Of a stretch of DNA of 64,000 bases, positions 26,692 through 43,378 are shown piece after piece. Source of the stretch: Zobellia galactanivorans (GTDB lineage Bacteria > Bacteroidota > Bacteroidia > Flavobacteriales > Flavobacteriaceae); NCBI RefSeq assembly GCF_000973105.1, contig NC_015844.1, forward strand, positions 4,026,501 to 4,090,500, given 5' to 3'. The position numbers and the translations under genes were made by a program. The notes below the pieces were generated by a model. The model was given only the letters and a program-made list of their open reading frames with translations, was not told the origin of the DNA and ran no database searches. The first letter of the stretch is position 1, and each line of letters begins with the position of its first letter.

Positions 26692-28452
26692 TTAGCTGCT
26701 TGGTGTTATTTCGATATAGAAAGGTTTTAGGTAACCACTGGTATTGTAAAGTAAGGGGGTTAGCTTGTAACTCCCTTTTGATAGCTTGAGGTTTTTTACT
26801 TCTAGCACATCATCGGAAAGGTTTTTAAAGCTTAGCGATTCTTTTAGGGACCCTATGGTCAATTTTAAGTTTATGTCACCGCCTATTTTTCGGCCCATAT
26901 GAATTTTGATGGTGTAGTTTCCTTGTTTTGCAACGGTAATCGCCCATCCTACAATCTCCTTGTTAAAATTGGGGTCTAAGGTAAATTCCCCGTCATTGAG
27001 GTTTAGAACCGTAGTAGGTTCGTGTACCGTACCTATAATGGCAGGGTGCGATTTGATAAAATTAGGCTCGGCAAACATTTCATCCAGCCACTGGTCCAAT
27101 TCGGTTTTTAACTCCTTGGATTTTTTGTTTTTTGGAGTTGCCAAATTCGTCAGTTCATAGGGGTCTTGGGCCAAATCATATAGTTCGAATTTCTCAACGG
27201 AGGCGTTCCCATCACAATTGCCTACGAGCTTGAACTCCTTGTTTCTAATGGAGATATTATTGTATTTTTCGGGGCCACCACGTACCCAACTTCGCACGAT
27301 GGAGCGATTTTCCAAAGTAGTATCACGACCGGATAAAAGTCCAAGAAGACTGGTACCGTCTATTTTTCGGTCTGTAGGCACCTTGGCCCGGCATAGCTCG
27401 GCCAATGTCGGCAAGATATCATAATGGGCGGCAGGCGTATTTATATCCCTATTGCCCATAAATTTTGAAGGTAAACGCCAAAAGCTCGGAACGCGAACAC
27501 CACCTTCGTAAACATAGGATTTTCGGCCTCGCATGCCAGCAATGTACCGGTCATGCTGAGGGCCATTGTCCGTCATAAAAATAACTAAAGTATTCTCGCT
27601 AAGTTTTAAATCATCGAGTTGCTGAAAAAGCCGCTTTAAGTTGTCATCTATATTGGATACCATGGCATAGACTTTTCTAGCTTGCTCCTTGGTTTTTTCA
27701 TTCATTGCAGGAAAAGGTCTGTTATCATTTTCAAAACCGGAAGCAGGGTCGATATCCTTATATAGATCGTAATATTTTTGAGGAACCTGCAGAGGGGCGT
27801 GTGGCGCGTTGTAGGCAAGGTAAAGGAAGAAAGGTTTGGCCTTGTTTTGATCTATAAAATCAATGGCGACATCGGTAAACACGTCGGAGCAATAGCCTTC
27901 ACTTTGAAACATTTCTCCATTTTTCCAGAGTACGGGGTTAAAATAACTGCTGTCTCTTTTTGCCGTATTGGGCCAATCTCCCGGCTGACCTATACCACCG
28001 GATAAATGACGTAACGTAAAATCAAAACCTTGGTCTTGGGGTCTTGAGGGATAATTATCGCCCAAATGCCATTTGCCGACCATACCTGTAGCATAGCCTT
28101 CCTGTTTTAGCATTTCCGCGAGGGTTATCTCATTTGTAGACATAATGGCCCCACCTCTATAAGTATCCCTTACACCTGTTCTTAAGGGGTGTCTACCGGT
28201 CATTAGTGCCGCTCTTGTAGGAGCACATACGGGAGATACTATAAATTCATCAAATCGAACACTTTCTCGGGCAAAAGCATCGATTGTGGGGGTTTTCACA
28301 TGCGGATTGCCATAATAGCCCAAATCACCAAAACCTTGATCGTCGGTCATGACCATAATGACATTGGGCCTCGGGTTTTCCGGTGCTTGGGATTGAAGGT
28401 ATAGACAGAAATGACTTAAGACAAGTATTAGTACTTTAGAATGTTGAAACAT
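26692..28452 (-). CDS. Secreted sulfatase with extra C-terminal beta-rich domain, S1 family
   Basis: A 586-residue sulfatase. The ATG at 28452 gives a clean signal peptide (MFQHSKVLILVLSHFCLYLQ); the longer frame from 28503 adds 17 residues that spoil it. Metal block MTDDQGFGD, formylglycine motif CAPTR (Cys76), GKWHLG, and MTDNGPQ. The catalytic part ends around residue 470; the last ~100 residues (GEFTLDPNFNKEIVGWAITV..KGSYKLTPLLYNT) are beta-rich and not part of the sulfatase fold, possibly a carbohydrate-binding module. It is the last gene of a long minus-strand operon and converges on the sulfatase ending at 26664 with only 27 bp between. No terminator hairpin was seen there. Confidence 0.9.
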   Translation of the reverse strand: MFQHSKVLILVLSHFCLYLQSQAPENPRPNVIMVMTDDQGFGDLGYYGNPHVKTPTIDAFARESVRFDEFIVSPVCAPTRAALMTGRHPLRTGVRDTYRGGAIMSTNEITLAEMLKQEGYATGMVGKWHLGDNYPSRPQDQGFDFTLRHLSGGIGQPGDWPNTAKRDSSYFNPVLWKNGEMFQSEGYCSDVFTDVAIDFIDQNKAKPFFLYLAYNAPHAPLQVPQKYYDLYKDIDPASGFENDNRPFPAMNEKTKEQARKVYAMVSNIDDNLKRLFQQLDDLKLSENTLVIFMTDNGPQHDRYIAGMRGRKSYVYEGGVRVPSFWRLPSKFMGNRDINTPAAHYDILPTLAELCRAKVPTDRKIDGTSLLGLLSGRDTTLENRSIVRSWVRGGPEKYNNISIRNKEFKLVGNCDGNASVEKFELYDLAQDPYELTNLATPKNKKSKELKTELDQWLDEMFAEPNFIKSHPAIIGTVHEPTTVLNLNDGEFTLDPNFNKEIVGWAITVAKQGNYTIKIHMGRKIGGDINLKLTIGSLKESLSFKNLSDDVLEVKNLKLSKGSYKLTPLLYNTSGYLKPFYIEITPSS

Positions 28453-28529
28453 AGGTGCTTTGTATAAAACGAATATCGGGTTAACGCGAAATACGCCGGA
28501 CAATGGTTTTTTTGTTGACCTTCGCCATT

Positions 28530-30002
28530 TTATTGGGTGTAGGGTACCATTCCATTTTTGTCTACATGATAACCGTATTTTTTTATGTACTCAGGTCCTG
28601 AAAGAAACGCGTCGTTATTGGCATTCAACCTTTGGGTCAATGTCTTGTCAAGCCTTTCTTGTATTGCGCTAAACTCAGCTTGGCCGATAAGGTTATTTTG
28701 TTGAAAGGGATCCGTTTGATTGTCATATAAAAGCCACGGCCCGTTTAAATCTCGGGCATAGGTGTACCTGAGGGTTCTAAGTCCCCTAAACTCCTTGCCT
28801 CCTCTATGTCTGCCCCATTGTCCAAAAGGTTGGATACATCTTATTTCGGCTGCGTAATCTATATCGTCTTCATTGTTTTTAATGATGGAACTAAAGTTCA
28901 TGCCTTCTATGCTTTTGGGTATGTCAATATCGCACAAGCCCAATAATGTGGGTAAAATATCTTCGGTATTGATAACTGTTTTTTTGACCGCGGGAGCCAG
29001 GTTCATGTCCTTAGGTAATTTCATTAACATGGGTACCCGAATAGATTCTTCATAGGGTTGCTGCTTTTTGTAGGCTCCTTGTGAACCTAGCATATCCCCA
29101 TGGTCGGAAGTGAAGAGTATCAAGGTGTTTTCCCATTGTCCCTCTTCCTTGAGTTTTTTGGTGATTTTCCCGATCATATCATCTATGGCCGCAATATGGG
29201 CATAATAGCCGGCCAAATCGGTTTTGGCCTTTTCCTGCATTTCTTCCGGTACGTTTTCCCGTAGTTTGATGTTTGCAGGGTCGAACATCTTTCTATACTT
29301 CTCCGGTGCGGTATGGTAGGGGGCATGTGGCGTGCCATAGGAAACGATCATCATAAAAGGTGATGAGTCCCCATTTTTGGTCTGGATATAATTTAGGGCC
29401 GCATCGGTCTGGTCAAAAGTATCGTAGTGTTCCCAGATTTTTTGTTCGGGATCGAGATTGTCATAGTAAACGGAATGATTGTAATCATGGGTGCATTCAT
29501 TGGCCTTCCAAAAATCGAAGCCCTGTCTTCTCGCTCCCGGAGGAACATTTTGAAGCCTGCCGTGTCCGTCTAAATGCCATTTGCCGATATATCCGGTATC
29601 GTAATGGTTCTTGTTGAATATTTTGGCCATGGTCAGCGCATTGGTATCCAATTGCACATCGTTCATAAAAACGCCATTGCTCAAAGGCCGTTGGCCGGTC
29701 AATAGTGATGCTCGAAACGGGGTACATACCGGTGTGCCCGATACGGCATTTTCAAAGTTTAGGCTCTCGGAAGCCAATACATCTAAATTAGGGGTAATGG
29801 CATTGGGGTCACCGGCATATCCTGTAGCTTGGGCACGCCATTGATCGGTCAAAAGAATAAGGACATTGGGCTTTTGAATAGCCCCTTTATCTGAAGGGGC
29901 CGCTTTTTTGGTTTCATTGCACGATATACTTGAGATAAGAATACCGGCCCATAGGAGATGGGAGAAAAAGGGGAAGAGACTTCTTATAAAATTATCGGGC
30001 AT
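28530..30002 (-). CDS. Lipoprotein sulfatase with CTPFR motif, S1 family
   Basis: A 490-residue sulfatase with lipobox SISC at Cys28. The first metal block reads LTDQWRAQATGYAGD, with Asp-Gln in place of Asp-Asp. The maturation motif is CTPFR at Cys93: the Cys-x-Pro-x-Arg core is intact but position four is Phe, rarer than Ser, Thr or Ala. GKWHLDG and FTSDHGDMLGS (Asp-His rather than Asp-Asn) complete the active site. These features fit an S1 branch with TDQWR and DHGD signatures. It lies 77 bp upstream of the sulfatase at 28452 in the same operon and downstream of a sialate-O-acetylesterase-like gene. Activity is likely, because the core residues are present. Confidence 0.9.
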   Translation of the reverse strand: MPDNFIRSLFPFFSHLLWAGILISSISCNETKKAAPSDKGAIQKPNVLILLTDQWRAQATGYAGDPNAITPNLDVLASESLNFENAVSGTPVCTPFRASLLTGQRPLSNGVFMNDVQLDTNALTMAKIFNKNHYDTGYIGKWHLDGHGRLQNVPPGARRQGFDFWKANECTHDYNHSVYYDNLDPEQKIWEHYDTFDQTDAALNYIQTKNGDSSPFMMIVSYGTPHAPYHTAPEKYRKMFDPANIKLRENVPEEMQEKAKTDLAGYYAHIAAIDDMIGKITKKLKEEGQWENTLILFTSDHGDMLGSQGAYKKQQPYEESIRVPMLMKLPKDMNLAPAVKKTVINTEDILPTLLGLCDIDIPKSIEGMNFSSIIKNNEDDIDYAAEIRCIQPFGQWGRHRGGKEFRGLRTLRYTYARDLNGPWLLYDNQTDPFQQNNLIGQAEFSAIQERLDKTLTQRLNANNDAFLSGPEYIKKYGYHVDKNGMVPYTQ

Positions 30003-30065: not shown

Positions 30066-31487
30066 TTATTCAATTTCCCAATCATCGGTTCTAAAGGAAG
30101 AAGCGGGTAGGCCTTCGGTATTAAATAGTTCCCCTTCAACAAAGTCATCAAAGGCATAGCGCACGGCTACGGGCTCTTTTACGAAGGCAGAGAACAGCGT
30201 GATTCCTTGCCAGTTGATAGTGGCATGGGCCGGATAGAAACGCTTGTTTTTTCCGGCAATCTTAAAGTTGGTAAGTGCTTTTCCAAAGGTATTTAAACCG
30301 TGTTGGGCGTGATCAAAGGTCAATCTTACCGCTGGGCCTTCTATGGTCATTTCCTTTAAAACGGGACCGGAGTAGGCAATACCCGGAATTTCGTAGGTCT
30401 GTGCCAAGGCTTGATAGGCAAAACGTTCACCGCCCACTTGCTTATTAGAGGGGTGAATGCAATTCTTCTCGCCAATATCCATTAAACAGACCATTCCCGT
30501 GTTTTCGGTAAGTTTTAAGGTGTTATACTGGGCTTCTCTGAGCAAGGCCGAATTTATACCGGGTGTAGCGTAATCATACGGTGCAATTTGGGCATAGTAA
30601 AAGGGAAAATCGCCTAGGCCCAATTCCTTACGCCAATTCGCGATGAGTCCGGGTAAGAGTTGCCCATATTTTTTAGGATGCTTTCTATTCGATTCCCCTT
30701 GGTACCAAATGGCCCCTTTTATGGTATAGCCGATAATCGGATGGATCATGGCATTGAACAGGGCAGAGGGTATTTTCTGCGATAACTTTCCTTTAGCGTC
30801 CAAGCCCGGTTCGGGTACCCAATCGAATTCTTTTAAGCCATCTTCACTGATCCAAGGCTCTATGGCCGTTCCGCCCCAGCTAGAACTGATCAATCCTACA
30901 GGTACCTGAAGAACCTCTTGCAACATTTTGCCGAAATAATAGGCCGTGGCACTAAAATTTGCGGCCGTTCCTGGAGTGGAATTTTGCCACTCGCCATTAA
31001 AATCTTCCAATCTTTTTAAGCTGGCATTTCGCTCAACGGTAAAAAAACGTAAGGAGGGATTGGTAGAGGTCGCAATAGCTTTGTTCGAGCCTAGAACAGG
31101 TTGGTTGATATTACCTTTAAGCGTCATAAACATGTTTGATTGCCCGGAGCAAAGCCATACTTCACCGATAAGGACATCTGAAAGGGTCAATGTTCTTTCA
31201 TCGGAAATCGTAATGGAATAAGGCCCTCCCGCAGCAGGGGTTCGGATTTTCAATCGCCAGTCCCCACGTAAGTCGGCATGGGTTTTATAGGTCTTGTCAT
31301 CCCAAGAAGTCTTTATTTCAACAAGGTGGCCCGGAGAAGCCGAACCCCAAATGGAAGTGTTCGATTGTTGCTGAAGTACCATATGGTCCCCAAAAAGGGC
31401 AGGTAATTTTATTTCGGCTTTGGCCACAGGGGCCACACATAGGAGAATAAGAAATAAGAGCTTTTTTACGATCGAATTTTTAAGCAT
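30066..31487 (-). CDS. Sialate O-acetylesterase-like secreted esterase (CE20-like)
   Basis: A 473-residue protein with a signal peptide (to about residue 24, VAKA), an N-terminal beta-sandwich (LPALFGDHMVLQQ, a family hallmark) and an SGNH-like esterase domain. Nucleophile Ser117 is in CSGQSNMF; GLISSSWGGTAIEPWIS and WYQGESN are conserved; CIHPSNKQVGGERFA near residue 340 supplies the Asp/His region (MDIGEKNCIHP). Despite the name, relatives de-acetylate plant and algal polysaccharides (CE20 group). In this operon it lies between the unrecognised TIM-barrel protein and two sulfatases, so it would remove acyl groups that block other enzymes. Substrate not known. Confidence 0.88.
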   Translation of the reverse strand: MLKNSIVKKLLFLILLCVAPVAKAEIKLPALFGDHMVLQQQSNTSIWGSASPGHLVEIKTSWDDKTYKTHADLRGDWRLKIRTPAAGGPYSITISDERTLTLSDVLIGEVWLCSGQSNMFMTLKGNINQPVLGSNKAIATSTNPSLRFFTVERNASLKRLEDFNGEWQNSTPGTAANFSATAYYFGKMLQEVLQVPVGLISSSWGGTAIEPWISEDGLKEFDWVPEPGLDAKGKLSQKIPSALFNAMIHPIIGYTIKGAIWYQGESNRKHPKKYGQLLPGLIANWRKELGLGDFPFYYAQIAPYDYATPGINSALLREAQYNTLKLTENTGMVCLMDIGEKNCIHPSNKQVGGERFAYQALAQTYEIPGIAYSGPVLKEMTIEGPAVRLTFDHAQHGLNTFGKALTNFKIAGKNKRFYPAHATINWQGITLFSAFVKEPVAVRYAFDDFVEGELFNTEGLPASSFRTDDWEIE

Positions 31488-31518: not shown

Positions 31519-33930
31519 TTATTTTTTGTTGAGGATGAGTTTTATTTTTTTCCAAGGATGGGGATATGCGGTAATCCATAATTCTGGGTCAAAGCTTAAA
31601 TTGGCTTTATCATAGCCCATGACAAAAACATCGATTTCTTTACCTACCATATTCTTGTCCAAAGGAATATAATAGGTGTAATTCGTATCCCTGCGTGAAT
31701 TTAGAAATTCCCAGGTGTTCGAAGGGAAGGAGGAAGCCCTGTCATTTGCACCGATATAATTTTCGCCGATTTTGGCACCGGCATAGGCCCCCTCAATACC
31801 GTGTTTTCCATTTAGGGCAACACAGAGATAGCTGCCATCGGCAATTTCGTCCAAGACGATTTTTGACTTCCATACTTTTTTTGCGATTTTCTTACTGGAA
31901 TGCGCAAACAGATTAGAGGCTTTCCACAAGCTACGATCCAGTTTTTTTCCATTCGCCAGACCTTCAATTTCTACGATGCGTTGCGGAAAATTTTTAAACC
32001 GTAAATAACGTACCTTTTTATTGAGGCTTATCTCTATTTGTGTAGCCGCCAAATACGTGATTTCTTCCCAATGGACCAAGTTGGTGGATACCTCTACAAA
32101 ATTACCTTCGGCAACTAGTAAAGGCTGTAAGGAAAACTCGTCTGGAACGGTAATTATAAGTTTGTCCATATAGGTGACTTCACCTAAATCTAAGCGTAAG
32201 CTCCCGCCATCGACCCTTGGGTCTAAACGAAACTTCCGGGAAGGCCAAAACCCGGTTTTTAAATTGCCGTCAAATAAATTTTTATCCCAAACGCCTCTGT
32301 TGACAAATGCCTTTTGATTGAAAAATGCATCCCTTGCCGCCTTTACCTCGGGTATAAGGGTTGCTCCGGAACGTTGTAGTGAACGTACTTCCAGGGCATT
32401 GTTATCTGCCGCAAATACGGTGGCTTCGTATATAGATTCCACATCTTCGGGAATGGCCGTTTCGGTAAAGGGGCTTAGTTTACGGTGAAAATTGTTCCTT
32501 AGCTTATTTCCCGGGAAATTCAACTTCAGTTTTTTTCCTTTGACTAACCGTTGCACCTTTTTACCGTTTATTTCTGCTGAGGTATATTGGTTTTCGTTCT
32601 GTAATTGAATGTTGGATGTCGTTCCCGGCATTCCCAAGAGTTCAATTTCAATAGGGGCGTCGTCCACATTTTTTACGGTTTGAAAATTGGCGCCGGCAAT
32701 TAGGGGGGCGTCATATGCTTGGGTTGTTGCTAAAAATAAAGCCGATCTAAAAGGCAACACTTCAACGGGAATGCTTTCGCCTTTGGAAAATGTACCGATC
32801 ATTTTTTCGGTCGGGTGTAATTGTAGCAATGTAATAGAACCATCACCTTTAAGTCCGATTTCTTCATCGAGTTGTATGGCATAAGTGGCGGCTTCCCACT
32901 TTAGGTTTCTTAGGCTTATTAATTGGGTTTTTCCATTGCCTCGGGTTACCGCGTTTGGTCCGTACGATTCATCAGCGACTTTTCCGTCGACCAGAATGTC
33001 TCTATACTTTTTGTGAATGTTGTAAATGTGGGCCAACTTAGAAAATTCATTCTCATTGAGTAGCCAAGGGTTTCCGTAAATTTCGGGGGATAAGATCAAC
33101 TCGCGGTTAAAGGCTTGTAAGATCAAATCATCTTCCCAATAATCTAGGCAAGACGAAATACATACGCCATGGTCTTCCGTTAAGCGCTGTAAACCGGGAA
33201 CCAAACCTCGCGATAGGGCAGAGGCCCTATGGTGTGGAGCGGTAACGTTATTGGTCATATGCACATCTATATAGGTTTCGTGACCTTCCCATAAGAAAGT
33301 GGTAGCGTAAGGTGCGGCTTTATCAAGACCTATACGATGGTTCAGTAAAATGAGGTCGGGACTATGCACACGGCATTGTTGCATCATATTGATGAAGGCA
33401 TCTTCCTTTTCGGGGCGTAGCGGTCCACATACGGCATCAAACTTAAAGAGGGCAAAGTTATAATCCTTGCACAACTTTACCATTTGGTCCGTGCGGGCCT
33501 TTTCCTCCTCTGGCGTATCTCCAAACCCATCCGGTCCGCCCCAAACCCCTAATCGTATATCAAGGGATTTGGCTTGGGCGTAAATTGGGTCAAAACCGTT
33601 GGGAAACTGGGTTTTGAATCTATCGGAATAGATACTGCCATAAAAATTCTTGCCGTCAATAGCCCCTGCATCCATGGCATAAATATCCAACTGCATACCA
33701 TATTCCTTCTTTAGCCATCCAAAGAATTCCAAATTGATCTTTGTTTGTTCTGCGGCGGCCCCTTCGTTGGTGTTGTTTATCCAACTAAAATATTGAGCTT
33801 TGGAAGGCGTGCGTTCATCTGCCCCGGCAGACACCTTGTTTTGTGCCGATACGGGCCAAAACGGCATTAAGAGCACCCAAAATAAAATAAGATTCCGGCT
33901 TGGAAAAAGACTGGTTGTCGTTTGGTTCAT
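31519..33930 (-). CDS. Unrecognised secreted TIM-barrel-like protein, candidate glycoside hydrolase
   Basis: An 803-residue secreted protein. The ATG at 33930 gives signal peptide residues 1-30 (ILFWVLLMPFWPVSAQ); a longer frame from 34026 would overlap the preceding GH78 gene. After the signal, FSWINNTNEGAAAEQ and FFGWLKKEYGMQLDIYAMD, LGVWGGPDGFGDTPEEE, LFKFDAVCG and LILLNHRIG suggest successive strands of a (beta/alpha)8 barrel. Asp165 in KFDAVCG sits where clan GH-D enzymes (GH27/GH36) keep their Lys-x-Asp nucleophile. The C-terminal ~250 residues (DLGEVTYMDKLIITVPDEF, WEEITYLA, VRYLRFKNF) look like a discoidin/F5-8-type domain and more beta-structure. I do not recognise a named GH family. 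Between GH78 and an esterase in the operon, it is probably an exo-acting glycosidase. Confidence 0.7.
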   Translation of the reverse strand: MNQTTTSLFPSRNLILFWVLLMPFWPVSAQNKVSAGADERTPSKAQYFSWINNTNEGAAAEQTKINLEFFGWLKKEYGMQLDIYAMDAGAIDGKNFYGSIYSDRFKTQFPNGFDPIYAQAKSLDIRLGVWGGPDGFGDTPEEEKARTDQMVKLCKDYNFALFKFDAVCGPLRPEKEDAFINMMQQCRVHSPDLILLNHRIGLDKAAPYATTFLWEGHETYIDVHMTNNVTAPHHRASALSRGLVPGLQRLTEDHGVCISSCLDYWEDDLILQAFNRELILSPEIYGNPWLLNENEFSKLAHIYNIHKKYRDILVDGKVADESYGPNAVTRGNGKTQLISLRNLKWEAATYAIQLDEEIGLKGDGSITLLQLHPTEKMIGTFSKGESIPVEVLPFRSALFLATTQAYDAPLIAGANFQTVKNVDDAPIEIELLGMPGTTSNIQLQNENQYTSAEINGKKVQRLVKGKKLKLNFPGNKLRNNFHRKLSPFTETAIPEDVESIYEATVFAADNNALEVRSLQRSGATLIPEVKAARDAFFNQKAFVNRGVWDKNLFDGNLKTGFWPSRKFRLDPRVDGGSLRLDLGEVTYMDKLIITVPDEFSLQPLLVAEGNFVEVSTNLVHWEEITYLAATQIEISLNKKVRYLRFKNFPQRIVEIEGLANGKKLDRSLWKASNLFAHSSKKIAKKVWKSKIVLDEIADGSYLCVALNGKHGIEGAYAGAKIGENYIGANDRASSFPSNTWEFLNSRRDTNYTYYIPLDKNMVGKEIDVFVMGYDKANLSFDPELWITAYPHPWKKIKLILNKK

Positions 33931-33982: not shown

Positions 33983-36523
33983 TTATGCTTTTGGCGATAC
34001 AATAATGGCGTATTGGCCTTCTTCAAGGTCGAAGTTTCCGGTTTTTAGTGCTTTGCGTTTTTTTGACTTCAATTGTACGCCCTCTTTTAAGACCGTTATT
34101 TTCTGTGAGGCATCTAGGGCTAAACTGATCTTGGCCGTAGTTCCTTTTGGGATTTCAATGCTGTATTCGTAGCTGTTGGCTGACAGCTTTTTCCAATTCG
34201 ATACGATGGAGCCATAGGGCGAGTTGTATTTTGTATTTACAAATTCTAGGCCTTCCGGTGTTGACGGGGCAAGTACGAACTTTTTAAAACCGGGATGCTC
34301 AGGGTCGGGGCGGATGCCGCCCAACCACCTGTAAAACCATTCGGAAACAGAACCGAACATGGGATGGTTGTTAGAGAAAGTATTATCACTTTCTTTCCAT
34401 GTCTCCCATAGAGTGGTGGCACCATTATCTACCATAAAGCCCCAACCCGGAAAGGCCTTGCTGTTGACAACGTCAAAAACGACTTCAGGTGAAAGGTTTT
34501 TAGAGGCGGCTTCCAGTATATATTTGGTTCCGAAGATACCGGTATTAAAGTGTGCCGAAGGACCGTTCTTTAATGCTTTTTGCAAAGAATCTTTGGCAGC
34601 CCCGAGCTCTTCCTTAGGGATGATGTTATGATAAAGCAAGGTAGAGAATAGGGTTTGGCGGTTTATTTTTTTAGTCACCGCTTTGTCCCAAAATTCATTT
34701 TTAATCAATTCCCTTAAATGTTCGGCAAGTGCGGCATATTTTAATTCGTTTTCTTTATCGCCCATTACCTTTGCGAAGGTTTCCATGATTTCAGCGCATT
34801 GCAGGTAGTGCGCAGTACCGGTCAATTGTACTGGAACGGGCTCTAGGGATTCGTGATCGCTCAAGCCGTTATTTACTAAGCCTTCCGGATGAATACGAGC
34901 TACTTTGTCCATCCATTCCTTATTCTTTGAATAGAGTTCTTTAACGAATGCTACATCATTGTAATAGAGGTAGATGTAATACTGTGTGGTGAGGTAGGCA
35001 GACTCCCAACTGATTCCACAATATGCAACGCCCGCAAAAGGCGCGGTGTCTACGAAGGAGGAATCCTTCATGGCATCGATCCAATCGTAGACGGTTTTTT
35101 TATAAATGTCCTGCATATCATAATTGTTGATATACGATTCACTGGTCGCGTTCAAATCGCCGCCGTACCCGAACTTCTCCCGTGCGGCACAATCCGATTG
35201 TACGCTGATCAAGTTGGTGACAAATGACCTCCTTGTAATCTCTTGAATGCTATTGAGCAACTCTGATGAACTATTGAACTCACCGGCTTCGGAAACATGG
35301 GTGTGCATCAACAAACCATGTACGTCAGAAACGGCAGGCGCCTTCTCTAGTCCCTTAACTTCCATATATCGGTAAACGTGATAGGTGAATTCGGGTTCAA
35401 ACCACGAAGGGGACTCCTTGCCTACGATATAGCTGTCCGTCTGCCATGCGATTTCCGGGGCACCGGGGCCACCAATGCCTTTTTTCTTTATTTGACCTAT
35501 TACGGTGGTCATGGGGTTTAACGTTCCATCATCGTAGATACGCTCTCCAAACCTGAAATTTATGGTGTCGCCGACTTTGCCACTTAACTTGATTTTATAC
35601 GTGCCCGTGAAATTCACGCCCATATCAATCACATAAGTTCCTTTTTCGGGATTGGTAATGGCTACGGGGGTTATGGTTTGGGTGACTTGTACAGGAGGGA
35701 AGAATGCCTGCTGTAGTTTTCCGCCAGGACCTTTGTCCGGTATGGCCTTTGACCAAGAGGCGTCGTTAAAACCGGGCTGGTTCCAGTTCTCTATTTCTTG
35801 CTTTGCATCATACACGGTACCGAGGTAAACACTGTTTTTCTGGATGGGACCATACGTATATTTCCAGGTGTTGTCGGTATTGATGGTGTCGGTCTCCCCG
35901 TTTTTATACGCTACGACAAGTTGCGCTATAAAAGTGGGTTTGCCTACGGTAAGGTCGGTTCTTAGGTTTCGCCTGCCCCATTTTCTTAGGGGGAGCGGAT
36001 TATAAAAACCGTTGCCAAGAATAACGCCAAGGCAATTGCTTCCTTCTTTTAGTTGTTGGGTGATTTCGTATGCGGTGTAATAGGTTCTTTTGCTATAGTC
36101 CGTCCATGCGGGATCCAATACATTTTTCCCAATAGCTTCCCCGTTTATGCTGCCTTTATAATATCCTGCGGACGTGATATAAAGTGTAGCCTTGGAAATT
36201 TCTCCCTTCGATTTAAATTCCTTTCTAAAAATTGGAGCAGGGTGGGCGAGGTATAATAAGGAATCGGCTGTTGGAATTTCACGCCCATAAGTTATCCACT
36301 CCGCATTGGTAAATGCCTTTTCCTCTGAAGATAAAAGTGGATCGCCACTGAATTTCGCTCCCTCGTTTTTTGCTGGCTCAAGTAAAGCGAGGTCTTTCTT
36401 GTCAAGTAGGGCAGGTGCTTCGTCATTACTGTCGAAGCCGTAAAAGGTAAGTAGACAGACCAAAACACCGGCTCCTATTAGGAACAGGTCATGGTTTACT
36501 TTTTTTCGTTTCATTTTTTCCAT
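33983..36523 (-). CDS. GH78 alpha-L-rhamnosidase
   Basis: An 846-residue enzyme predicted to release terminal alpha-L-rhamnose. N-terminal membrane/signal segment: HDLFLIGAGVLVCLLTFYGF. Domains in order: two N-terminal beta-sandwiches of the Bac_rhamnosid type (AEWITYGREIP; TLYITSAGYYKGSINGEAIG, LDPAWTDYSKRTYYTAYE), a beta-domain with VIDMGVNFTGTY, an (alpha/alpha)6 barrel and a C-terminal beta-sandwich. Catalytic residues: Glu449 in CAAREKFGYGGDLNA (general acid region) and Glu707 in TTLWETWKE (general base region), as in characterised GH78 enzymes. It lies 67 bp after the esterase-GH27 gene and 52 bp before the unrecognised TIM-barrel gene in the minus-strand operon. Its presence points to rhamnose in the substrate, though related L-sugars cannot be excluded. 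Confidence 0.9.
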   Translation of the reverse strand: MEKMKRKKVNHDLFLIGAGVLVCLLTFYGFDSNDEAPALLDKKDLALLEPAKNEGAKFSGDPLLSSEEKAFTNAEWITYGREIPTADSLLYLAHPAPIFRKEFKSKGEISKATLYITSAGYYKGSINGEAIGKNVLDPAWTDYSKRTYYTAYEITQQLKEGSNCLGVILGNGFYNPLPLRKWGRRNLRTDLTVGKPTFIAQLVVAYKNGETDTINTDNTWKYTYGPIQKNSVYLGTVYDAKQEIENWNQPGFNDASWSKAIPDKGPGGKLQQAFFPPVQVTQTITPVAITNPEKGTYVIDMGVNFTGTYKIKLSGKVGDTINFRFGERIYDDGTLNPMTTVIGQIKKKGIGGPGAPEIAWQTDSYIVGKESPSWFEPEFTYHVYRYMEVKGLEKAPAVSDVHGLLMHTHVSEAGEFNSSSELLNSIQEITRRSFVTNLISVQSDCAAREKFGYGGDLNATSESYINNYDMQDIYKKTVYDWIDAMKDSSFVDTAPFAGVAYCGISWESAYLTTQYYIYLYYNDVAFVKELYSKNKEWMDKVARIHPEGLVNNGLSDHESLEPVPVQLTGTAHYLQCAEIMETFAKVMGDKENELKYAALAEHLRELIKNEFWDKAVTKKINRQTLFSTLLYHNIIPKEELGAAKDSLQKALKNGPSAHFNTGIFGTKYILEAASKNLSPEVVFDVVNSKAFPGWGFMVDNGATTLWETWKESDNTFSNNHPMFGSVSEWFYRWLGGIRPDPEHPGFKKFVLAPSTPEGLEFVNTKYNSPYGSIVSNWKKLSANSYEYSIEIPKGTTAKISLALDASQKITVLKEGVQLKSKKRKALKTGNFDLEEGQYAIIVSPKA

Positions 36524-36590: not shown

Positions 36591-39191
36591 TTAAGGAGCT
36601 ATTACGTGTGCATCTCCCCAGTTTCCAAAAACCTTTTTTCCGGTGAACTCCAACAAGATAAAATCGAGACCTTTTACATCGATATCGATTTCTATCTTAT
36701 CACCTCTTTTCATTTTCTTACTATCGAATAGCACCCGGCCTCCAAATCGTTCTTCGACCATGACCTTAAACTGGCCCGTAGCATCTTTGGGGGAACTTTT
36801 ATCCAAGGAAACAATGGCCTTGAACCTTGCGGCCTTTCCGTTAAGTCGGTACATGGTAGAGGACTTGCTTTTGGCCCCAAGCCCTTTCTTGTATTTTCGA
36901 CCTTTGATCTTAATGGGTTTTCCATTGAAATTGGCGTCCATTACCGGGGCATTGCCTTTCTTCAACATATAATAGATATCGCTTAGGTAGGTAATACCCG
37001 CTTGGGTGACTGTATATGCCTCTTCAGGAATTGGGGCGGGCCCTTTGACCGGCGTAGCGCCCTTGCTTCCGATTTTTAGTAGCACATGTTCGTGTTTGCC
37101 TAGACCGTTTGCCGTAAAGGAATTATCGAATTCGCCAAGGTCGTTCTTAAGCCATACATCTCTTACCTTTTGCTTTCCTTGGAGTCCGATAGTATTGAAC
37201 TGCACGGTTATATCGGTTTTTTTACTTCCCTTATTGAGCATTAAGACGGCGGTAGTACCATCGGAAAGCGGTTTGTTGTAAATCTCTACACTATCCTTGT
37301 CAAATACTTTGTAGCCTTGGTGGGCCCTAGCATCTTGATTGATGGCGATGACCTCCGCAGCTAAAAGTATTTTCTTGGTTTCTTCAGTCATTTTGCTCAG
37401 ATCGTTTCCGGCCATAATAGGGGCGGCCAGTATACTCCAAAGGCTAAAATGGACCTTGTCTTCCAAGGTGGTCTTAAGGTTGCCGACCTGGAGCATATCG
37501 GGATCGTTCCAGCTATCGGGTCCGGCGAATTGCCATAAACCTTGGAAGGCAGGATGGATGGAGCCATCGCCTCCAGAAGTGTTGGCACAATTATAGACGG
37601 AACGTATAGTAGGGTAAATATCACCGGAGGTACGCCAAAGCTGGCCATAGTTTTTACCGCCCCATGCCCATGCGCCACTTCCAAAATCCGAAATGCTTAA
37701 TACCATGGGTCTGCGGGTATGTACAATGGCTTGATGATAGACGTCTAAATCCTCACTGGACAAGCGACCGTTTTTTATGGCAAAACAAGCGTCTAGTTTA
37801 ATGTAGTCGACGCCCCAAGAAGCAAACGAATCCATATCCGTCTGTTCGTGCTCAAAACTACCGGGTAAATTTTGACAGGTGAGGTCGCCCCTGCATTCGT
37901 AAATACCATATTTAAGTCCTTTGCTATGAATGTAATCGCCTATGGCTTTCATACCGCCGGGAAACTTTACGGGATCTGCTACCAGTTGACCTGCCTCATT
38001 TCTTTCGGCGGCCATCCATGCATCATCAATAACTAAATATTCATAACCGGCGTCCCTCATACCGGAAGTGACCATAATATCGGCCATGTTCATGATTTTC
38101 TTTTCGTCGATATCTTTTTCAAAGGCATTCCAACTATTCCAGCCCATAGGGGGGGTAGGGGTTAGATAATCGCTGTTGTACGTGGCTACATGTTTTACCA
38201 CTGGCTTAAATTTTTTATTGCTATCAAGCAGGTCTAGCATGGCGTTGGCCATAGATTTGCCTACGAGCAAGTAAGATTCTGCATTTCTGCACCAATGGTA
38301 GATTTGCTTGGAAGGCGAATCTTCAATATCACGCCAAAAATCCCTAGTTTCAACAACGGCGACATTTTCTTTGAATTCGGGATAATCGGCCATGGCCAAC
38401 TGCGCGTTCATTAAAGATAGTCCCAAGGGGTTTTTGTCTTCCCATCCCTTCATGCCGGTAGTGGCGATTACAAAAGGGAGTTCGGGACTCCCAAGGTCGT
38501 TTCTGACATCTTTTATAAGGTGTTTTAAGTTAGATTCATAGGCTGCATTTGCCTTTTTATTGGCTCGGTCATTCCAACCTTGGTGCCATCCAAAACCTGA
38601 AACCTCATAGCCTTCGCCTTTATACCCGGGTACATATTGGTCTAGGTTTCTCAGTACCTTATAAACCGTAGACATCATTTGTACATAGTAATACCCGGTA
38701 TCTTTAGGCTGTGAGGGGACACGGTTATAGCCTTGTTCCCCGGCCGCACTCGGTGGGCAGAAGTCAACTGCCAGGCTTTTACCGCCCCAGGCTGTTTTTA
38801 TGAGGAGTACCTTGTTCTTAAAGTGGTCGCCCATAACATTGCCGAACTCTAGTTCTGGCCCTATGGTGTGCTTGAAGGCACCGTAGCCGGTACTCAACCT
38901 CCCGGTCTTTATAGCGTCGAATTTATCCCAAGTGTAAATGAAGACATCGTCTCTTTCACTCCACTTTCCGTCTTTGCTCTTTAGATGTTGGAATTCGCCA
39001 TTTTTATCATTGGCGACCACCCATTTGAGATTGCCTTTCTCTCCTTTTTCCATTTCACCATGGCCTTGCATATTCGATTGTCCTGCAAGAATAAAGACCT
39101 TTACCGGTTCTTGGGCCGCGACCCGTGTTAGGGAAAGAAATAACAGTAGTAAAAGCGATGTAAAAAAAGGATTTGTACTTGATTTGGTCAT
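36591..39191 (-). CDS. SASA esterase - GH27 alpha-galactosidase fusion with NPCBM-like tail
   Basis: An 866-residue, two-enzyme protein. Signal peptide to about residue 27 (TRVAAQ). Residues ~28-330 form a SASA esterase: FILAGQSNMQGHGE (Ser39), IKTAWGGKSLAV, GFGWHQGWNDR, and YHWCRNAESYLLVG. A GH27 catalytic barrel starts with PPMGWNSWNAFEKDIDEKKI (~350); the nucleophile is Asp467 (YIKLDACF), the acid/base candidate is Asp524 (LWRTSGDI), and SWNDPDML is conserved. After a beta-domain, the last ~120 residues (ITYLSDIYYMLKKGNAPV, then GLGAKSKSSTMYRL) resemble an NPCBM carbohydrate-binding module. GH27 hydrolyses alpha-galactose or beta-L-arabinopyranose. The fusion suggests that the galactose is acylated or sits next to an acylated residue. 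Confidence 0.92.
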   Translation of the reverse strand: MTKSSTNPFFTSLLLLLFLSLTRVAAQEPVKVFILAGQSNMQGHGEMEKGEKGNLKWVVANDKNGEFQHLKSKDGKWSERDDVFIYTWDKFDAIKTGRLSTGYGAFKHTIGPELEFGNVMGDHFKNKVLLIKTAWGGKSLAVDFCPPSAAGEQGYNRVPSQPKDTGYYYVQMMSTVYKVLRNLDQYVPGYKGEGYEVSGFGWHQGWNDRANKKANAAYESNLKHLIKDVRNDLGSPELPFVIATTGMKGWEDKNPLGLSLMNAQLAMADYPEFKENVAVVETRDFWRDIEDSPSKQIYHWCRNAESYLLVGKSMANAMLDLLDSNKKFKPVVKHVATYNSDYLTPTPPMGWNSWNAFEKDIDEKKIMNMADIMVTSGMRDAGYEYLVIDDAWMAAERNEAGQLVADPVKFPGGMKAIGDYIHSKGLKYGIYECRGDLTCQNLPGSFEHEQTDMDSFASWGVDYIKLDACFAIKNGRLSSEDLDVYHQAIVHTRRPMVLSISDFGSGAWAWGGKNYGQLWRTSGDIYPTIRSVYNCANTSGGDGSIHPAFQGLWQFAGPDSWNDPDMLQVGNLKTTLEDKVHFSLWSILAAPIMAGNDLSKMTEETKKILLAAEVIAINQDARAHQGYKVFDKDSVEIYNKPLSDGTTAVLMLNKGSKKTDITVQFNTIGLQGKQKVRDVWLKNDLGEFDNSFTANGLGKHEHVLLKIGSKGATPVKGPAPIPEEAYTVTQAGITYLSDIYYMLKKGNAPVMDANFNGKPIKIKGRKYKKGLGAKSKSSTMYRLNGKAARFKAIVSLDKSSPKDATGQFKVMVEERFGGRVLFDSKKMKRGDKIEIDIDVKGLDFILLEFTGKKVFGNWGDAHVIAP

Positions 39192-39215: not shown

Positions 39216-41783
39216 TTAATTATTGGTGTAGAAATAGCGGATTCTACAGCTGTTTCCGGCTCGTTTCGGGTCTTCCTGTTGGGCAATCTTTATTTGAAGG
39301 GTATGCTTTTTGTTCTCTAGGTCCGTTGCCAATGTAAAGAACCATGGCAAGTGAAGGCTCCTGCTCCAATTGGTCAGAAGGTCTAGTTCGACCCACTTTC
39401 CCTTGTCTATTCTATATGCTATGATTCCTGCATCGGGACCTGCGACTACCGCTATGCCAACGGTATTTCCGGTAAAATTGAAGTTTAGCTTGCCATCATT
39501 GGCCTTTTCTCCGATTAACATTGGTACCTTGGTGAAATTCTCCCTAGTAGCCTTCCCATCGGTAGGCTCCCAGTTTTCTATAATTTTCCAATCCCCATTG
39601 TATTTAGCTTCCTTAATATCTACCAGTTCCCCTTTGTCGTAGCTGAAGTGGTCTAGAGGGGCGGGTAGGGCGTAGCTTTTTATTTTGTCGTCTTCGGCGA
39701 CAGGTCGGACCCATGCTTCCTCCAAAAAAGAAATCATGGAATTCGCATAAATCCCCTGCCCGAACGGCGATGGGTGTAGGTTTTTAAAGTCGCCTTTCCA
39801 TGTAAATTCCCCCGCGTCGATACGATCGGTTACTTCCTTGGCCAGGTTGATCGTAGGTAGCTTATAATGGGCGGCTACCTTCTCATGGTTTTGAATGACG
39901 GCAGGGATTTTACCTTGCCTATAGGTCTTCATCTTACCGGGGTCTACAAAATGCATAATAACAATATCCGTAGCGGGATTTACGTAACGGGCATGCCTAA
40001 CAATGCCTTCCATGGCCCTAATTTGCTCTTGGTCGGTTCTTCCGTTTGTAGCATCGTTTACGGCAGCTTCTTCAAATAAGAGGTCTATGGGGCCACCTTT
40101 GAACAAGTCGTCTTTCATACGAAAAGCTGCGGGAGTGGAACCTGTTGAAGGAAGCCCGGCTTCGATAAATTCAAATTCCGTATCGGGGAACCTTTTTTGA
40201 ATATAGTTGGAAACACTATCTCGCCATCCTCCGTTATGCGTTATGGATCCGCCCAAGAAAGCTACCCTTCCTTTTTTCCCGTGTTGGAATTTTATGGTGC
40301 TGTTTTGCAGTCCGTTCCTAAGCTTGTGGTACGCCGAGGAAGATATGGGGCCGGTTTCTTTTTTGGTGTAGTACTTGATAAAATCGGCTCCCAATCTCGG
40401 GGTTTCTATGGGGAAGTGATGCCCATGGAGGGTTTGCTTCCCTTCCGTACAGGTCACTACGGTAGCAATGCCACCAAGCGCTATGTATTTGTTGATCAAG
40501 GGAAGCGTGTTTTCGGTAGGGGGGACTACGGAATCAGTCAAACTTATCATATGTAGCACGGGAACTTTTGCCGTGGCTAACTTTTCAAGGCCGTGCATCG
40601 GCATATCTGTATATTTTTTGGCCTCGGCATCAGAAGCAAAGCCATATTCCTTCTTAAGGATTCTCCAATCTTTTGCAGAGCCAATACCGGAGCCAAATCC
40701 CCCAGGCCAGCTGGTAAAATCCAGTACAGGCGCCTCGGCATAGATACAGCTGACACGCTCAGGGTATTTTTTGGCCCAATTGTAAATGAACAAGCCACCG
40801 CGACTCACACCTTCCAATGCTAGCTTGTCGCTAAAATCGTGAGCCTTGGTCAAATACTTGTAAAACCGGTCCCAGGACTTTACGGCCCTTGGACTTCCAA
40901 ATTGTGAGTTGGTATTCAAATAGGCGATATGAAAACCTTCGGAAAGTAAAATGCTATCCATTTCTGTGTGCCAGCCTGGAAATCGTGCACGCCAGACCCA
41001 TGGTTTTCCGTAAAGCGGTTTGGTAGGTTCAACGATGAAAGCCTTCTTGCCGTCAAATTCAAAATCGTATTTGCTAAAACCCTTCCAGTTGGATTTTTTA
41101 CCAGGGAATGTTTGGTCTACCAAAACACCCGGGGTACCTGTAAGGGATTCATAAACGATTTTGGCCATCTCACCGGCTCCCTTTCCGTTGGGATGTATGG
41201 CGTCAGGAAAGAAATCACCCTTATCTAGTAAAGGCGTGTAAAGGTCTATGAGGTTTAACCGATGTTTTTTTGCAATGCCCCTTATTTTAGGGTTGACCTC
41301 GTTCGTAACGATTTCCGCACTAATTTTCTTTCCTTTTTTATAGACCGGAGCAGCCAAGCATAGGTAAATGCTTGGTTTTGATTTTAAATTTTGAAAACTT
41401 TCGATAAGGTTGTGGTAATCGCTTTCGAAATCCGCTTTGTAAATCCAGTTAAAGTCTTTGCTGTCATTCGTACCCAGTTTAATGATGACAATATCCGGTT
41501 GGTAGTCTAAGGCCTTGGTATAGGCCTCGGTTTTAATGTAAGGGGAATTGCCCTTGGAAAGTAGTGTACGGCCGCTTACCCCAAAATTACGGACTTCATA
41601 GCCTTCACCGAGCATACGGTTCAATTGGGCCGGGTAGGCATTTTTTATTCGGTCTTTGATACCATGGCCAAAGGTGATGCTGTTACCGATACAGGCCACT
41701 TTTATCACTTCTTCATTTTGTGCATTACCATAAGAGATAGGCAATACGAACAACAGCATAAATAATATTCTGGTAAACTTCAT
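39216..41783 (-). CDS. Triple esterase: SGNH - alpha/beta hydrolase - SGNH fusion
   Basis: An 855-residue secreted protein with three hydrolase domains. The ATG at 41783 gives signal peptide MKFTRILFMLLFVLPISYG; an in-frame ATG at 41813 adds ten residues and is possible. Domain 1 (~25-220) is SGNH: ACIGNSITFGHG (Ser35), KLGTNDSKD, DAIHPNGKG. Domain 2 (~235-480) is an alpha/beta hydrolase: nucleophile elbow GVSRGGLF, then SLTDSVVPPTE and GHHFP for Asp/His. Domain 3 (~500-700) is a second SGNH with GGSITHNGGWRD, FEEAAVND and LHPSPFGQGIY. The final ~140 residues (NFTGNTVGIAVVAGPDAG, HTLQIKI) are beta-rich and probably bind carbohydrate. Three acyl-ester hydrolases in one chain suggest attack on densely or variously acylated glycans. 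It is eight or more bp downstream of a sulfatase. Confidence 0.87.
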   Translation of the reverse strand: MKFTRILFMLLFVLPISYGNAQNEEVIKVACIGNSITFGHGIKDRIKNAYPAQLNRMLGEGYEVRNFGVSGRTLLSKGNSPYIKTEAYTKALDYQPDIVIIKLGTNDSKDFNWIYKADFESDYHNLIESFQNLKSKPSIYLCLAAPVYKKGKKISAEIVTNEVNPKIRGIAKKHRLNLIDLYTPLLDKGDFFPDAIHPNGKGAGEMAKIVYESLTGTPGVLVDQTFPGKKSNWKGFSKYDFEFDGKKAFIVEPTKPLYGKPWVWRARFPGWHTEMDSILLSEGFHIAYLNTNSQFGSPRAVKSWDRFYKYLTKAHDFSDKLALEGVSRGGLFIYNWAKKYPERVSCIYAEAPVLDFTSWPGGFGSGIGSAKDWRILKKEYGFASDAEAKKYTDMPMHGLEKLATAKVPVLHMISLTDSVVPPTENTLPLINKYIALGGIATVVTCTEGKQTLHGHHFPIETPRLGADFIKYYTKKETGPISSSAYHKLRNGLQNSTIKFQHGKKGRVAFLGGSITHNGGWRDSVSNYIQKRFPDTEFEFIEAGLPSTGSTPAAFRMKDDLFKGGPIDLLFEEAAVNDATNGRTDQEQIRAMEGIVRHARYVNPATDIVIMHFVDPGKMKTYRQGKIPAVIQNHEKVAAHYKLPTINLAKEVTDRIDAGEFTWKGDFKNLHPSPFGQGIYANSMISFLEEAWVRPVAEDDKIKSYALPAPLDHFSYDKGELVDIKEAKYNGDWKIIENWEPTDGKATRENFTKVPMLIGEKANDGKLNFNFTGNTVGIAVVAGPDAGIIAYRIDKGKWVELDLLTNWSRSLHLPWFFTLATDLENKKHTLQIKIAQQEDPKRAGNSCRIRYFYTNN

Positions 41784-41821
41784 AGGAGTAAATGGGTTTG
41801 GCTTTTTTTGCATGATCGGTT

Positions 41822-43273
41822 TTAGCTTTTTGGTGCTTTTTTTACAAATTCTTTGGGGAATTTAGCATCTACTTCATCCCACCATTGGTAAAGCTTCTTG
41901 TACATATGCTGTGTAAGTTCGGGTAATTCCGAAGCCAAATTGTGTGTTTCGCCAATGTCGGATTTTAGGTTGTACAGTTCAAACCGATTCTCGTTTAGAA
42001 ACACGATCAATTTGTAATCACCGTCTATTATGGCACTACTGGGACTTCCTTTTTGGTTGGAACGGTGGGGGTAATGGTAGTAGGTGGCTTCATGTAGTTT
42101 ATGCGATTCACCTTTAAGCAATGGCACCAAGCTTTTTCCGTCTACATGTAAGTCGGGCCGTAGGGCCTGTCCGGTCATCTCTAGAATGGTAGGGTAAAAA
42201 TCCATACTGGTAATGACAGCATCGGATACGGTGCCGGGTTTGATGGTGCCGGGCCATCTGATGATGGCAGGTTCCCTTATCCCTCCTTCATACAGCCATC
42301 CTTTGCCGGCCCTTAACGGGGTGTTCGCGGTAGGGATTCCTTCTGAAGTCGATAATCCGCCATTGTCGGAAAAAAAGATGACCACGGTGTTGTCTGCAAT
42401 GCCCTTCTCTTGAAGCTTACCCAGTATTTTTCCGACGGCCATGTCCATAGATTCCACCATAGCGGCATAGGTAGGATGGTCTTGTTTTATGCGGTACTTA
42501 AAAGGTTTTTGGGCATTTTTTTCTTCGGCAAAGCGTTCTTTATCGGTAAGGGCTAGGGCCTTTTTTTTCTTTTCATATTTTTCAACTCGGTCCGCAGGGG
42601 CATCAAACGGGGCATGTACGGAGTAAAGGGAGAAATAGAGCAGGAAGGGGGCTTTGGAATTTTCGTCAATAAAATCAATGGCTTCTTTTGCCAAGCGGTC
42701 CGTCATATATTCGCCTTCGGGACCGTTCTCTAAATTGGGGATGTTCCACGGGGAGAAGTATTTGTTCTTTATATATAATCCTCCTCTAAAATGCCCGGCC
42801 ACGTTTACATCGAAGCCTTGTTTGTCGGGCCAGAATTTTTCCTCCCCTGCCACATTGTTCAGGTGCCATTTGCCCATAAAGGCGGTTTTGTAACCCGCGT
42901 CTTGGAGCAGTTCGGGAAATAGGACCTCCTCAAGGGGAAGGTTTCTTAGGTAATCGGGGTTGCCCGGGCCTCCAATCCATTGCGTGAGGTCGATACGCGC
43001 CGGGTTTTTCCCTGTAAGTATAGAAGCCCTGGTGGGGGAACATATGGGGGAAGCGGCATAGGCCTTCGTAAAACGAATGCCTTCCTTGGCCAATTGATCA
43101 ATATTTGGTGTTTCGTAAAACGTACTTCCATTGGCAGCGATATCCATCCAACCTAGGTCATCGACCAAAATAAAAACAATGTTTGGTTGCTTGTCGGTTT
43201 GGGCGAAGACTGTAGGCCCGAGAACCGTTAAGAGTACCCATAGATTTCTGTAAAAAAGCTTGTGTAAATGCAT
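41822..43273 (-). CDS. Secreted sulfatase, S1 family (S1_16-like)
   Basis: A 483-residue sulfatase with a cleavable signal peptide ending around VFAQ (residue 25), so periplasmic. Metal block LVDDLGWMD, formylglycine motif CSPTR (Cys78), GKWHLN, and second metal site FSDNGG followed by LRAGKGWLYEGGIREP. It matches the sulfatase at 8223-9656 in many blocks (FYETPNIDQLAKEGI, YFSPWNI, GEYMTDRLAKEA), so the two probably share an S1 subfamily, perhaps S1_16, and may act on similar linkages under different control. Transcribed just ahead of the triple esterase. Confidence 0.92.
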   Translation of the reverse strand: MHLHKLFYRNLWVLLTVLGPTVFAQTDKQPNIVFILVDDLGWMDIAANGSTFYETPNIDQLAKEGIRFTKAYAASPICSPTRASILTGKNPARIDLTQWIGGPGNPDYLRNLPLEEVLFPELLQDAGYKTAFMGKWHLNNVAGEEKFWPDKQGFDVNVAGHFRGGLYIKNKYFSPWNIPNLENGPEGEYMTDRLAKEAIDFIDENSKAPFLLYFSLYSVHAPFDAPADRVEKYEKKKKALALTDKERFAEEKNAQKPFKYRIKQDHPTYAAMVESMDMAVGKILGKLQEKGIADNTVVIFFSDNGGLSTSEGIPTANTPLRAGKGWLYEGGIREPAIIRWPGTIKPGTVSDAVITSMDFYPTILEMTGQALRPDLHVDGKSLVPLLKGESHKLHEATYYHYPHRSNQKGSPSSAIIDGDYKLIVFLNENRFELYNLKSDIGETHNLASELPELTQHMYKKLYQWWDEVDAKFPKEFVKKAPKS

Positions 43274-43378
43274 TTAAATAATTTTGGAAAGGTTTTGCGT
43301 CAATTTAAGGACGAATATGAGAGGGGGGCACCCTACGTTTACGGATAAGAAATGCGTCAAAACTAAAACGATTTTGTT

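Follow-up and report, generated by a model that had tools for sequence, protein, structure and literature searches.

The DD-G-W motif after strand 2 is a mark of glycoside hydrolase family GH36, and the second Asp of its DD contacts galactose hydroxyls in both GH27 and GH36. According to the excerpt of PMC1249566 consulted here, enzymes of the alpha-galactosidase superfamily carry their nucleophilic Asp at the C-terminal end of strand 4 and their proton donor at that of strand 6, and GH97 was at first an unclassified group with a relationship to this superfamily. FX is used below for the 803-aa protein encoded by the ORF 31519..33930 (minus strand, ATG start) in the window, that is, the whole analysed stretch of 64,000 nucleotides from Zobellia galactanivorans contig NC_015844.1; all positions are those of the window, and all parts of FX lie on the minus strand. 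The gene is present as one copy in the genome (5,521,712 bases, one contig). We propose with good, though not full, confidence that FX acts as an alpha-glycosidase, probably an exo-enzyme, that is secreted or located in the periplasm, and that it represents a group of the alpha-galactosidase superfamily separate from GH27, GH31, GH36 and GH97.

Relatives of FX were searched for in a phylum sample (395 genomes) and a family sample (397 genomes). The phylum sample gave matches in 3/395 genomes at E<=0.001, self included and the other two weak, and the reading of FX as a protein without relatives, which came from this sample, was overturned by the family sample and by a scan of species genomes. 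Ten of the 397 family-sample genomes matched at E<=0.01, and full-length matches with 53-100% identity were obtained in seven of them, self included, while the three same-genus genomes listed in that sample gave no FX match. A scan of 84,980 species genomes with the profile of the seven full-length proteins detected at least 230 stretches encoding an FX relative. The best 80 of the 230 stretches were used as loci, and their hosts were from Bacteroidota, Verrucomicrobia (Akkermansiaceae, Rubritalea), Kiritimatiellae, Planctomycetes, Aminicenantes, Acidobacteriota and Armatimonadetes, together with one gammaproteobacterium (Exilibacterium), the phylum of some named hosts being the one to which we presume they belong. 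The FX-family alignment consisted of 80 rows, namely FX and 79 of the 80 loci (L074 was left out due to an in-frame stop at residue 24); because these rows are the best of 230, the invariance given below holds among close members (>=48% identity to FX). Separately, a 50-residue stretch with 68% identity to FX residues 41-90 was observed on a Persicobacter psychrovividus plasmid (NZ_AP025297.1, 39046-39195), where it falls under a hypothetical protein and where tblastn of the plasmids gave no further FX match.

Family-model searches of FX were done against Pfam and NCBIfam. No catalytic model of Pfam was matched at E<=1, the sole line being F5_F8_type_C_2 (E 0.12, below the cut-off), and NCBIfam gave zero matches at E<=10. 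Melibiase (PF02065, GH36) matched neither FX (E<=1) nor any of ten further members (0/10 at E<=0.1), and Melibiase_2 (PF16499, GH27), PF01055 (GH31) and PF10566 (GH97) were likewise unmatched in FX and these ten members; the Raffinose_syn search matched nothing, its control sequences included. By sequence, FX gave a single chance match in the PDB (E 0.13), and the 80-row FX-family profile gave chance matches for the barrel and one C-terminal match (E 0.032). Text searches of the open-access literature (none by sequence) found no paper on the FX family. The earlier note had stated that the blocks flanking the Lys-x-Asp motif do not match GH27, GH31 or GH36, and no catalytic model was found for FX in the two libraries and none over the cut-off in the ten members. 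Its further proposal of a candidate new glycoside hydrolase family is partly supported, by the lack of a clear match to an existing family in Pfam and NCBIfam and by the GH-D-like predicted barrel described below, the novelty being set against these two libraries. FX as a plain member of GH27, GH31, GH36 or GH97 was rejected on the family models and the profile comparison.

Structure prediction was performed by AlphaFold2 on the 80-row alignment, and the FX model had a mean pLDDT of 92.9 and a pTM of 0.90. An N-terminal segment (residues 1-29, 33844..33930) with mostly low pLDDT was read by eye as signal-peptide-like, with which the description of FX as secreted in the earlier note is consistent to the extent of this by-eye reading. 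It is followed by a predicted (beta/alpha)8 barrel (about residues 45-312, 32995..33798; model, Foldseek and hhalign) and a beta-sandwich (about residues 313-490, 32461..32994; model and hhalign), the same arrangement as in clan GH-D. The eight strands in the model that we assigned to the barrel are residues 46-48, 83-86, 126-131, 159-165, 194-198, 211-213, 256-258 and 283-286, respectively. When the FX model was compared with the PDB by Foldseek, 286 matches were obtained at E<=0.001. Two fungal beta-galactosidases (E 2.2e-13 and 2.9e-13), which we take to be GH35, headed the list, followed by an Arabidopsis alpha-galactosidase (E 1.9e-11) and GH27 enzymes from 5.9e-11, and the lower rows included GH97, a neopullulanase and a GH5 entry; the family numbers GH35, GH36 and GH13 of unlabelled rows are assumed by us. 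Human alpha-galactosidase A (1r46) was matched at E 8.8e-11 and 1.1e-10 with target-normalised TM-scores of 0.58 and 0.60, and target-length TM-scores reached up to 0.62 for GH27-type enzymes. The barrel suggested in the earlier note from the strand spacing was recovered, with clan GH-D enzymes among its Foldseek neighbours, and a non-barrel fold is excluded at the level of prediction. The presumed GH35 enzymes in the top two rows, together with GH13 and GH5 barrels that score too, count against the superfamily assignment.

For profile comparison by hhalign, profiles were built from Pfam-found loci of GH36 (11 proteins), GH27 (7 proteins, the one of the window included and L095 left out as a wrong ORF), GH97 (30 proteins) and GH31 (13 proteins). 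Five melibiase-like proteins (L002, L003, L010, L011 and L013), which were the weak first matches from the phylum and family samples, formed another set, from which L012 (347-aa frame, FX residues 24-78, E 0.0046) was left out. L003, L010 and L013 were used as sequences of 847-876 aa cut at the locus ends (open frames of 919-1048 aa), and L002 and L011 are 695 and 676 aa long, respectively. The FX alignment matched the five melibiase-like proteins with a probability of 99.1% over 369 columns (residues 59-447), far beyond the 61-73 residues originally matched, the scores being somewhat flattered by the choice of these proteins for weak matches across 792 genome searches. The probability was 98.6% for L003, L010 and L013 together, 92.0% for L002 and L011 together, and 79.0-97.6% for each protein singly. 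In the search of the 395 genomes with the FX-family profile, matches were obtained in 2/395, namely self and the place of L003 (E 2.2e-5). Direct comparison was weak with GH36 (63.4% over 65 columns, and 0.3-65.1% when its proteins were taken singly) and gave no match with GH27 (1.5%; single proteins 0.3-4.1%), GH97 (1.1%) or GH31 (0.3%), which argues against the superfamily assignment; six reversed alignments and eight other proteins of the window, GH27 among them, gave 0.1-1.0% and 0.1-0.4% as the controls, respectively. On the basis of the model, the Foldseek matches and the profile link to the melibiase-like proteins, FX is therefore placed in the alpha-galactosidase superfamily, apart from GH27, GH31, GH36 and GH97. 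The five melibiase-like proteins are the nearest relatives of FX, and they pass the Melibiase cut-off in Pfam but have no NCBIfam match over the cut-off.

W50, E56, D92, W130, K163, D165, N197, H198, R199, E218, Y220, D222, E252, D253 and D267 were invariant in the FX-family alignment (80/80). D165, within K163-F164-D165 (33436..33444), ends strand 159-165 of the model and is aligned with the Asp of FKWDG in L010 and of FKFDG in L013. Judged from the model, the alignments and the conservation, D165 is the predicted nucleophile and is located where clan GH-D has its own. The 803-residue protein and the KFD motif with Asp165 named in the earlier note are both present, and its placement of a Lys-x-Asp at the clan GH-D nucleophile site agrees in position with D165, which ends strand 4 and aligns with the melibiase-like Asp. 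Both E218 (33277..33279) and D222 (33265..33267) follow strand 211-213, that is, strand 6. Three alignments, namely the weak one to GH27 and those to L003 and L010, place D222 opposite an Asp, while the one to L013 pairs E218 with a Glu and leaves D222 one column off an Asp; the gaps differ between alignments. The candidate acid/base is D222 or E218, with the printed alignments mostly favouring D222, and this disagreement is a point against the superfamily assignment.

When FX is aligned with L003 or L013, its D87-A88-G89-A90 falls at the DD-G-W motif of the relatives (D87-A88-G89-A90-I91-D92, 33655..33672), and these four residues are conserved in 74/80, 78/80, 80/80 and 66/80 rows, respectively. 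The GH36 motif is not kept in FX, which reads DAGA followed by the invariant D92, and this also weighs against the superfamily assignment. The alignment to L010 pairs D92 with the second of the two Asp residues, so that D92 may stand in for the lost one. Because DAGA is found at the motif in two alignments yet D92 takes the second Asp in that to L010, a changed sugar pocket in FX is likely but not certain.

Among the other readings, that of FX as a very divergent GH36, filed by CAZy under GH36 or in the non-classified bin that exists there, has the most weight, and we regard it as a serious contender that falls somewhat short of probable. It draws on the melibiase-like relatives, all five of which pass the Pfam Melibiase cut-off (E 5e-8 to 2.3e-10) and which align as a group to the GH36 profile at 99.4% over 364 columns. 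It is opposed by FX and its ten further members, none of which is matched by Melibiase at the thresholds given above, by the short direct alignment of FX to GH36, and by the loss of DD-G-W.

The gene order on the minus strand around FX is sulfatase, sulfatase, GDSL, SASA-GH27-NPCBM, GH78, FX, SASA, sulfatase and sulfatase, with gaps of 8-105 bases. By Pfam, these genes encode two sulfatases (41822..44926), a GDSL and alpha/beta-hydrolase-like protein (39216..41813), a SASA esterase that also carries GH27 and NPCBM domains (36591..39191) and a GH78 with Bac_rhamnosid domains (33983..36523) on one side of FX, and a SASA carbohydrate esterase (30066..31487) and two sulfatases (28530..30002 and 26692..28503) on the other. 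The exo-glycosidases and esterases that had been reported as neighbours were found again, together with four sulfatases absent from that report. The GH27 of the window was best matched to alpha-galactosidases (E 2.3e-74), compared with 7.7e-27 for a GH27 beta-L-arabinopyranosidase. Promoter-like sites numbered 31 against 33.9 in shuffles, and terminator-like sites 39 against 26.9. Taken as a whole, the stretch 664-63985 contains ten sulfatases with a Sulfatase domain, another that is truncated at the end of the window, three pairs of SusC and SusD, two GH95, a GH2 and a GH30.

Most of this gene order is kept in Arenibacter and Cellulophaga relatives (L014-L016, L029, L033 and L083). According to blastp labels, SASA-GH27-NPCBM or a GH27 is also seen near the GH78 of FX in seven related loci. 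Another set of loci has the order SusC, SusD, FX and GH97. This unit was observed in L018, L020-L022, L024-L027, L030-L032, L034-L037, L057 and L060, many of them from Marinifilum and relatives (the SusD of L018 and L020 being an unlabelled ORF of matching size), and mostly without a labelled sulfatase nearby, L034 and L036 having one. By Pfam, the gene after FX was GH97 in 19/72 scanned cases with GH97_N and in 17/72 with Glyco_hydro_97, and the gene before FX was SusD-like in 18/69 and GH78 in 9/69. By blastp to a small named-protein set, by which 194/731 neighbours were labelled and in which unlabelled does not mean absent, GH97 was found in 21/79 loci, GH27 in 8/79 and either of them in 29/79, and the partner was adjacent and co-oriented for GH97 in 20/79 and for GH27 in 1/79; ORFs <150 aa and L090, in which no self ORF was called, were excluded from these counts. 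Against the pairing as a support of the superfamily assignment, 50/79 loci have no GH27 or GH97 label (19/79 have <5 kb upstream), many of the loci with GH97 are closely related to one another (Marinifilum, Labilibaculum), and the pairing counts are raw ones. For two partner GH97s, the best PDB match was a retaining alpha-galactosidase (E 1e-174 and 4.4e-174), as compared with 1.1e-67 and 8.9e-56 for the best entries of the alpha-glucosidase type. The other 20 labelled GH97s were compared with that of L025, and 18 were 45-83% identical and two short fragments 35-40%, as against 26-45% for 30 GH97s from elsewhere.

The pairing and the superfamily placement would also fit FX as a plain alpha-D-galactosidase that does the same work as the GH27 or GH97 next to it but cleaves a different linkage, with the invariant D92 replacing the second Asp as in the alignment to L010. 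We consider this unlikely, since A88 (78/80) occupies the second Asp of DD in two of the three alignments and the partner enzyme would be redundant. At a similarly low level, we put forward as a speculative possibility that FX founds its own retaining family with a remodelled pocket (DAGA-I-D for DD-G-W) and cuts off some alpha-linked sugar that is not plain D-galactose, e.g. L-galactose or a sulfated or anhydro sugar, by which chains would be exposed to the GH97 or GH27 partner.

Expression data bear on the possible substrate. In the part of PMC5613140 available, agar induces the sulfatase ZGAL_3527, and ZGAL_3509 adjoins a gene for a binding protein that responds to porphyran by induction. 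By ORF count, two sulfatases of the window are 18 ORFs apart, the same spacing as that of these two numbers. If this mapping is right, FX would be about ZGAL_3521 and its cluster would respond to red-algal galactans. The mapping is tentative because it was made after the fact, a GH88 landmark (zgal_3445 in the portion of PMC9296495 consulted) is about two off, and the spacing from the SusC/D pair zgal_3440-3441 of the same source fits poorly. A text search of the literature for ZGAL tags 351x and 352x found PMC5613140 only. The identification of FX with zgal_3470, listed as "GHnc in PUL35" in that portion of PMC9296495, was rejected: the sole GH88-domain match near the place of PUL34 is about 74 ORFs before FX, and zgal_3470 is therefore probably another gene.

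The C-terminal half comprises a strongly conserved helical linker (residues 497-552, 32275..32442; E514 and R520 80/80), followed by a discoidin-like jelly roll (residues 553-660, 31951..32274) and a further all-beta domain of the predicted models (residues 665-803, 31522..31938). Of 65 C-terminal halves, 30 and 24 were matched by the F5/8 type C models at E<=0.1 (lowest E 8.5e-6 and 5.1e-6, respectively), and the C-terminal half of FX itself was not matched at this threshold in the same scan; with F5_F8_type_C_2 below the cut-off for full-length FX, the discoidin reading is therefore weak for FX alone. The C-terminal profile matched a hyaluronidase (hyaluronoglucosaminidase) domain in the PDB, 2w1q, at E 0.0018 and two more entries at 0.002 and 0.0051; 2w1q is presumably a CBM32. 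With a separate model of the C-terminal half (pLDDT 95.0), Foldseek found nothing at E<=0.001; its leading rows were mixed, and the CBM32 5zu6 was at rank 20 (E 0.033, probability 1.00). The discoidin-like C-terminus claimed in the earlier note is supported at the family level, by the profile matches and 2w1q, while FX alone stays below the cut-off. The linker was observed to be about as conserved as the barrel, more than a spacer would lead one to expect, and the C-terminal half may therefore be more than a sugar-binding tail.

Two further readings have little weight. FX as a member of one of Naumoff's uncharacterised families GHL1-GHL15, such putative glycosidase families being described in the portion of PMC5352709 consulted, is improbable. 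FX as a binding protein that serves the uptake system and is catalytically dead, which would suit its place right after a SusD-like gene in 18/69 loci and its discoidin-like domain, is more improbable still, since a dead site hardly needs K163, D165, E218, D222, E252, D253 and D267 in 80/80 rows and conservation is higher in the barrel than in the beta domains of the C-terminus.

Returning to FX as an alpha-glycosidase of the superfamily, we infer its catalysis, exo action, stereochemistry, substrate and acid/base identity as follows. FX probably clips one alpha-linked sugar off algal or similar polysaccharides by double displacement with retention, in which D165 would attack the anomeric carbon, and D222 or E218 would protonate the leaving sugar and then activate water, while the beta-sandwich and the discoidin-like parts may hold the polymer. 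Its partner would be an alpha-galactosidase of GH97 or GH27, and the two would act on polysaccharides that contain galactose, are often sulfated and are imported by SusC/D systems. The FX group is likely an unnamed family inside a known superfamily, unnamed in Pfam and NCBIfam. With at least 230 stretches in species genomes, this group is widespread, and its catalytic part is nameless in both libraries; a defined activity of FX would supply a step in the breakdown of polysaccharides that contain galactose, and would help to annotate the uptake loci in which it adjoins SusC/D and an alpha-galactosidase-type gene.

Compared with known systems, FX resembles the F5/8 type C (discoidin) domains in the predicted jelly roll of residues 553-660, but lies below their curated cut-off and has non-significant Foldseek matches. 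GH97 retaining alpha-galactosidases belong to the same superfamily as FX (PMC1249566, in the excerpt cited above) and are its recurrent genetic partners, with a profile match of 1.1%. GH27 alpha-galactosidases are among the best fold neighbours of FX, yet their profile match is 1.5%. GH36 alpha-galactosidases (PF02065) resemble FX in the superfamily fold and in the Asp that ends strand 4, and differ in that their family model misses FX and the profile match extends over few columns. The melibiase-like L003, L010, L013, L002 and L011 are alignable with FX over the barrel and the beta-sandwich, with the nucleophile Asp aligned, whereas they carry DD-G-W and pass Pfam Melibiase and FX does neither.
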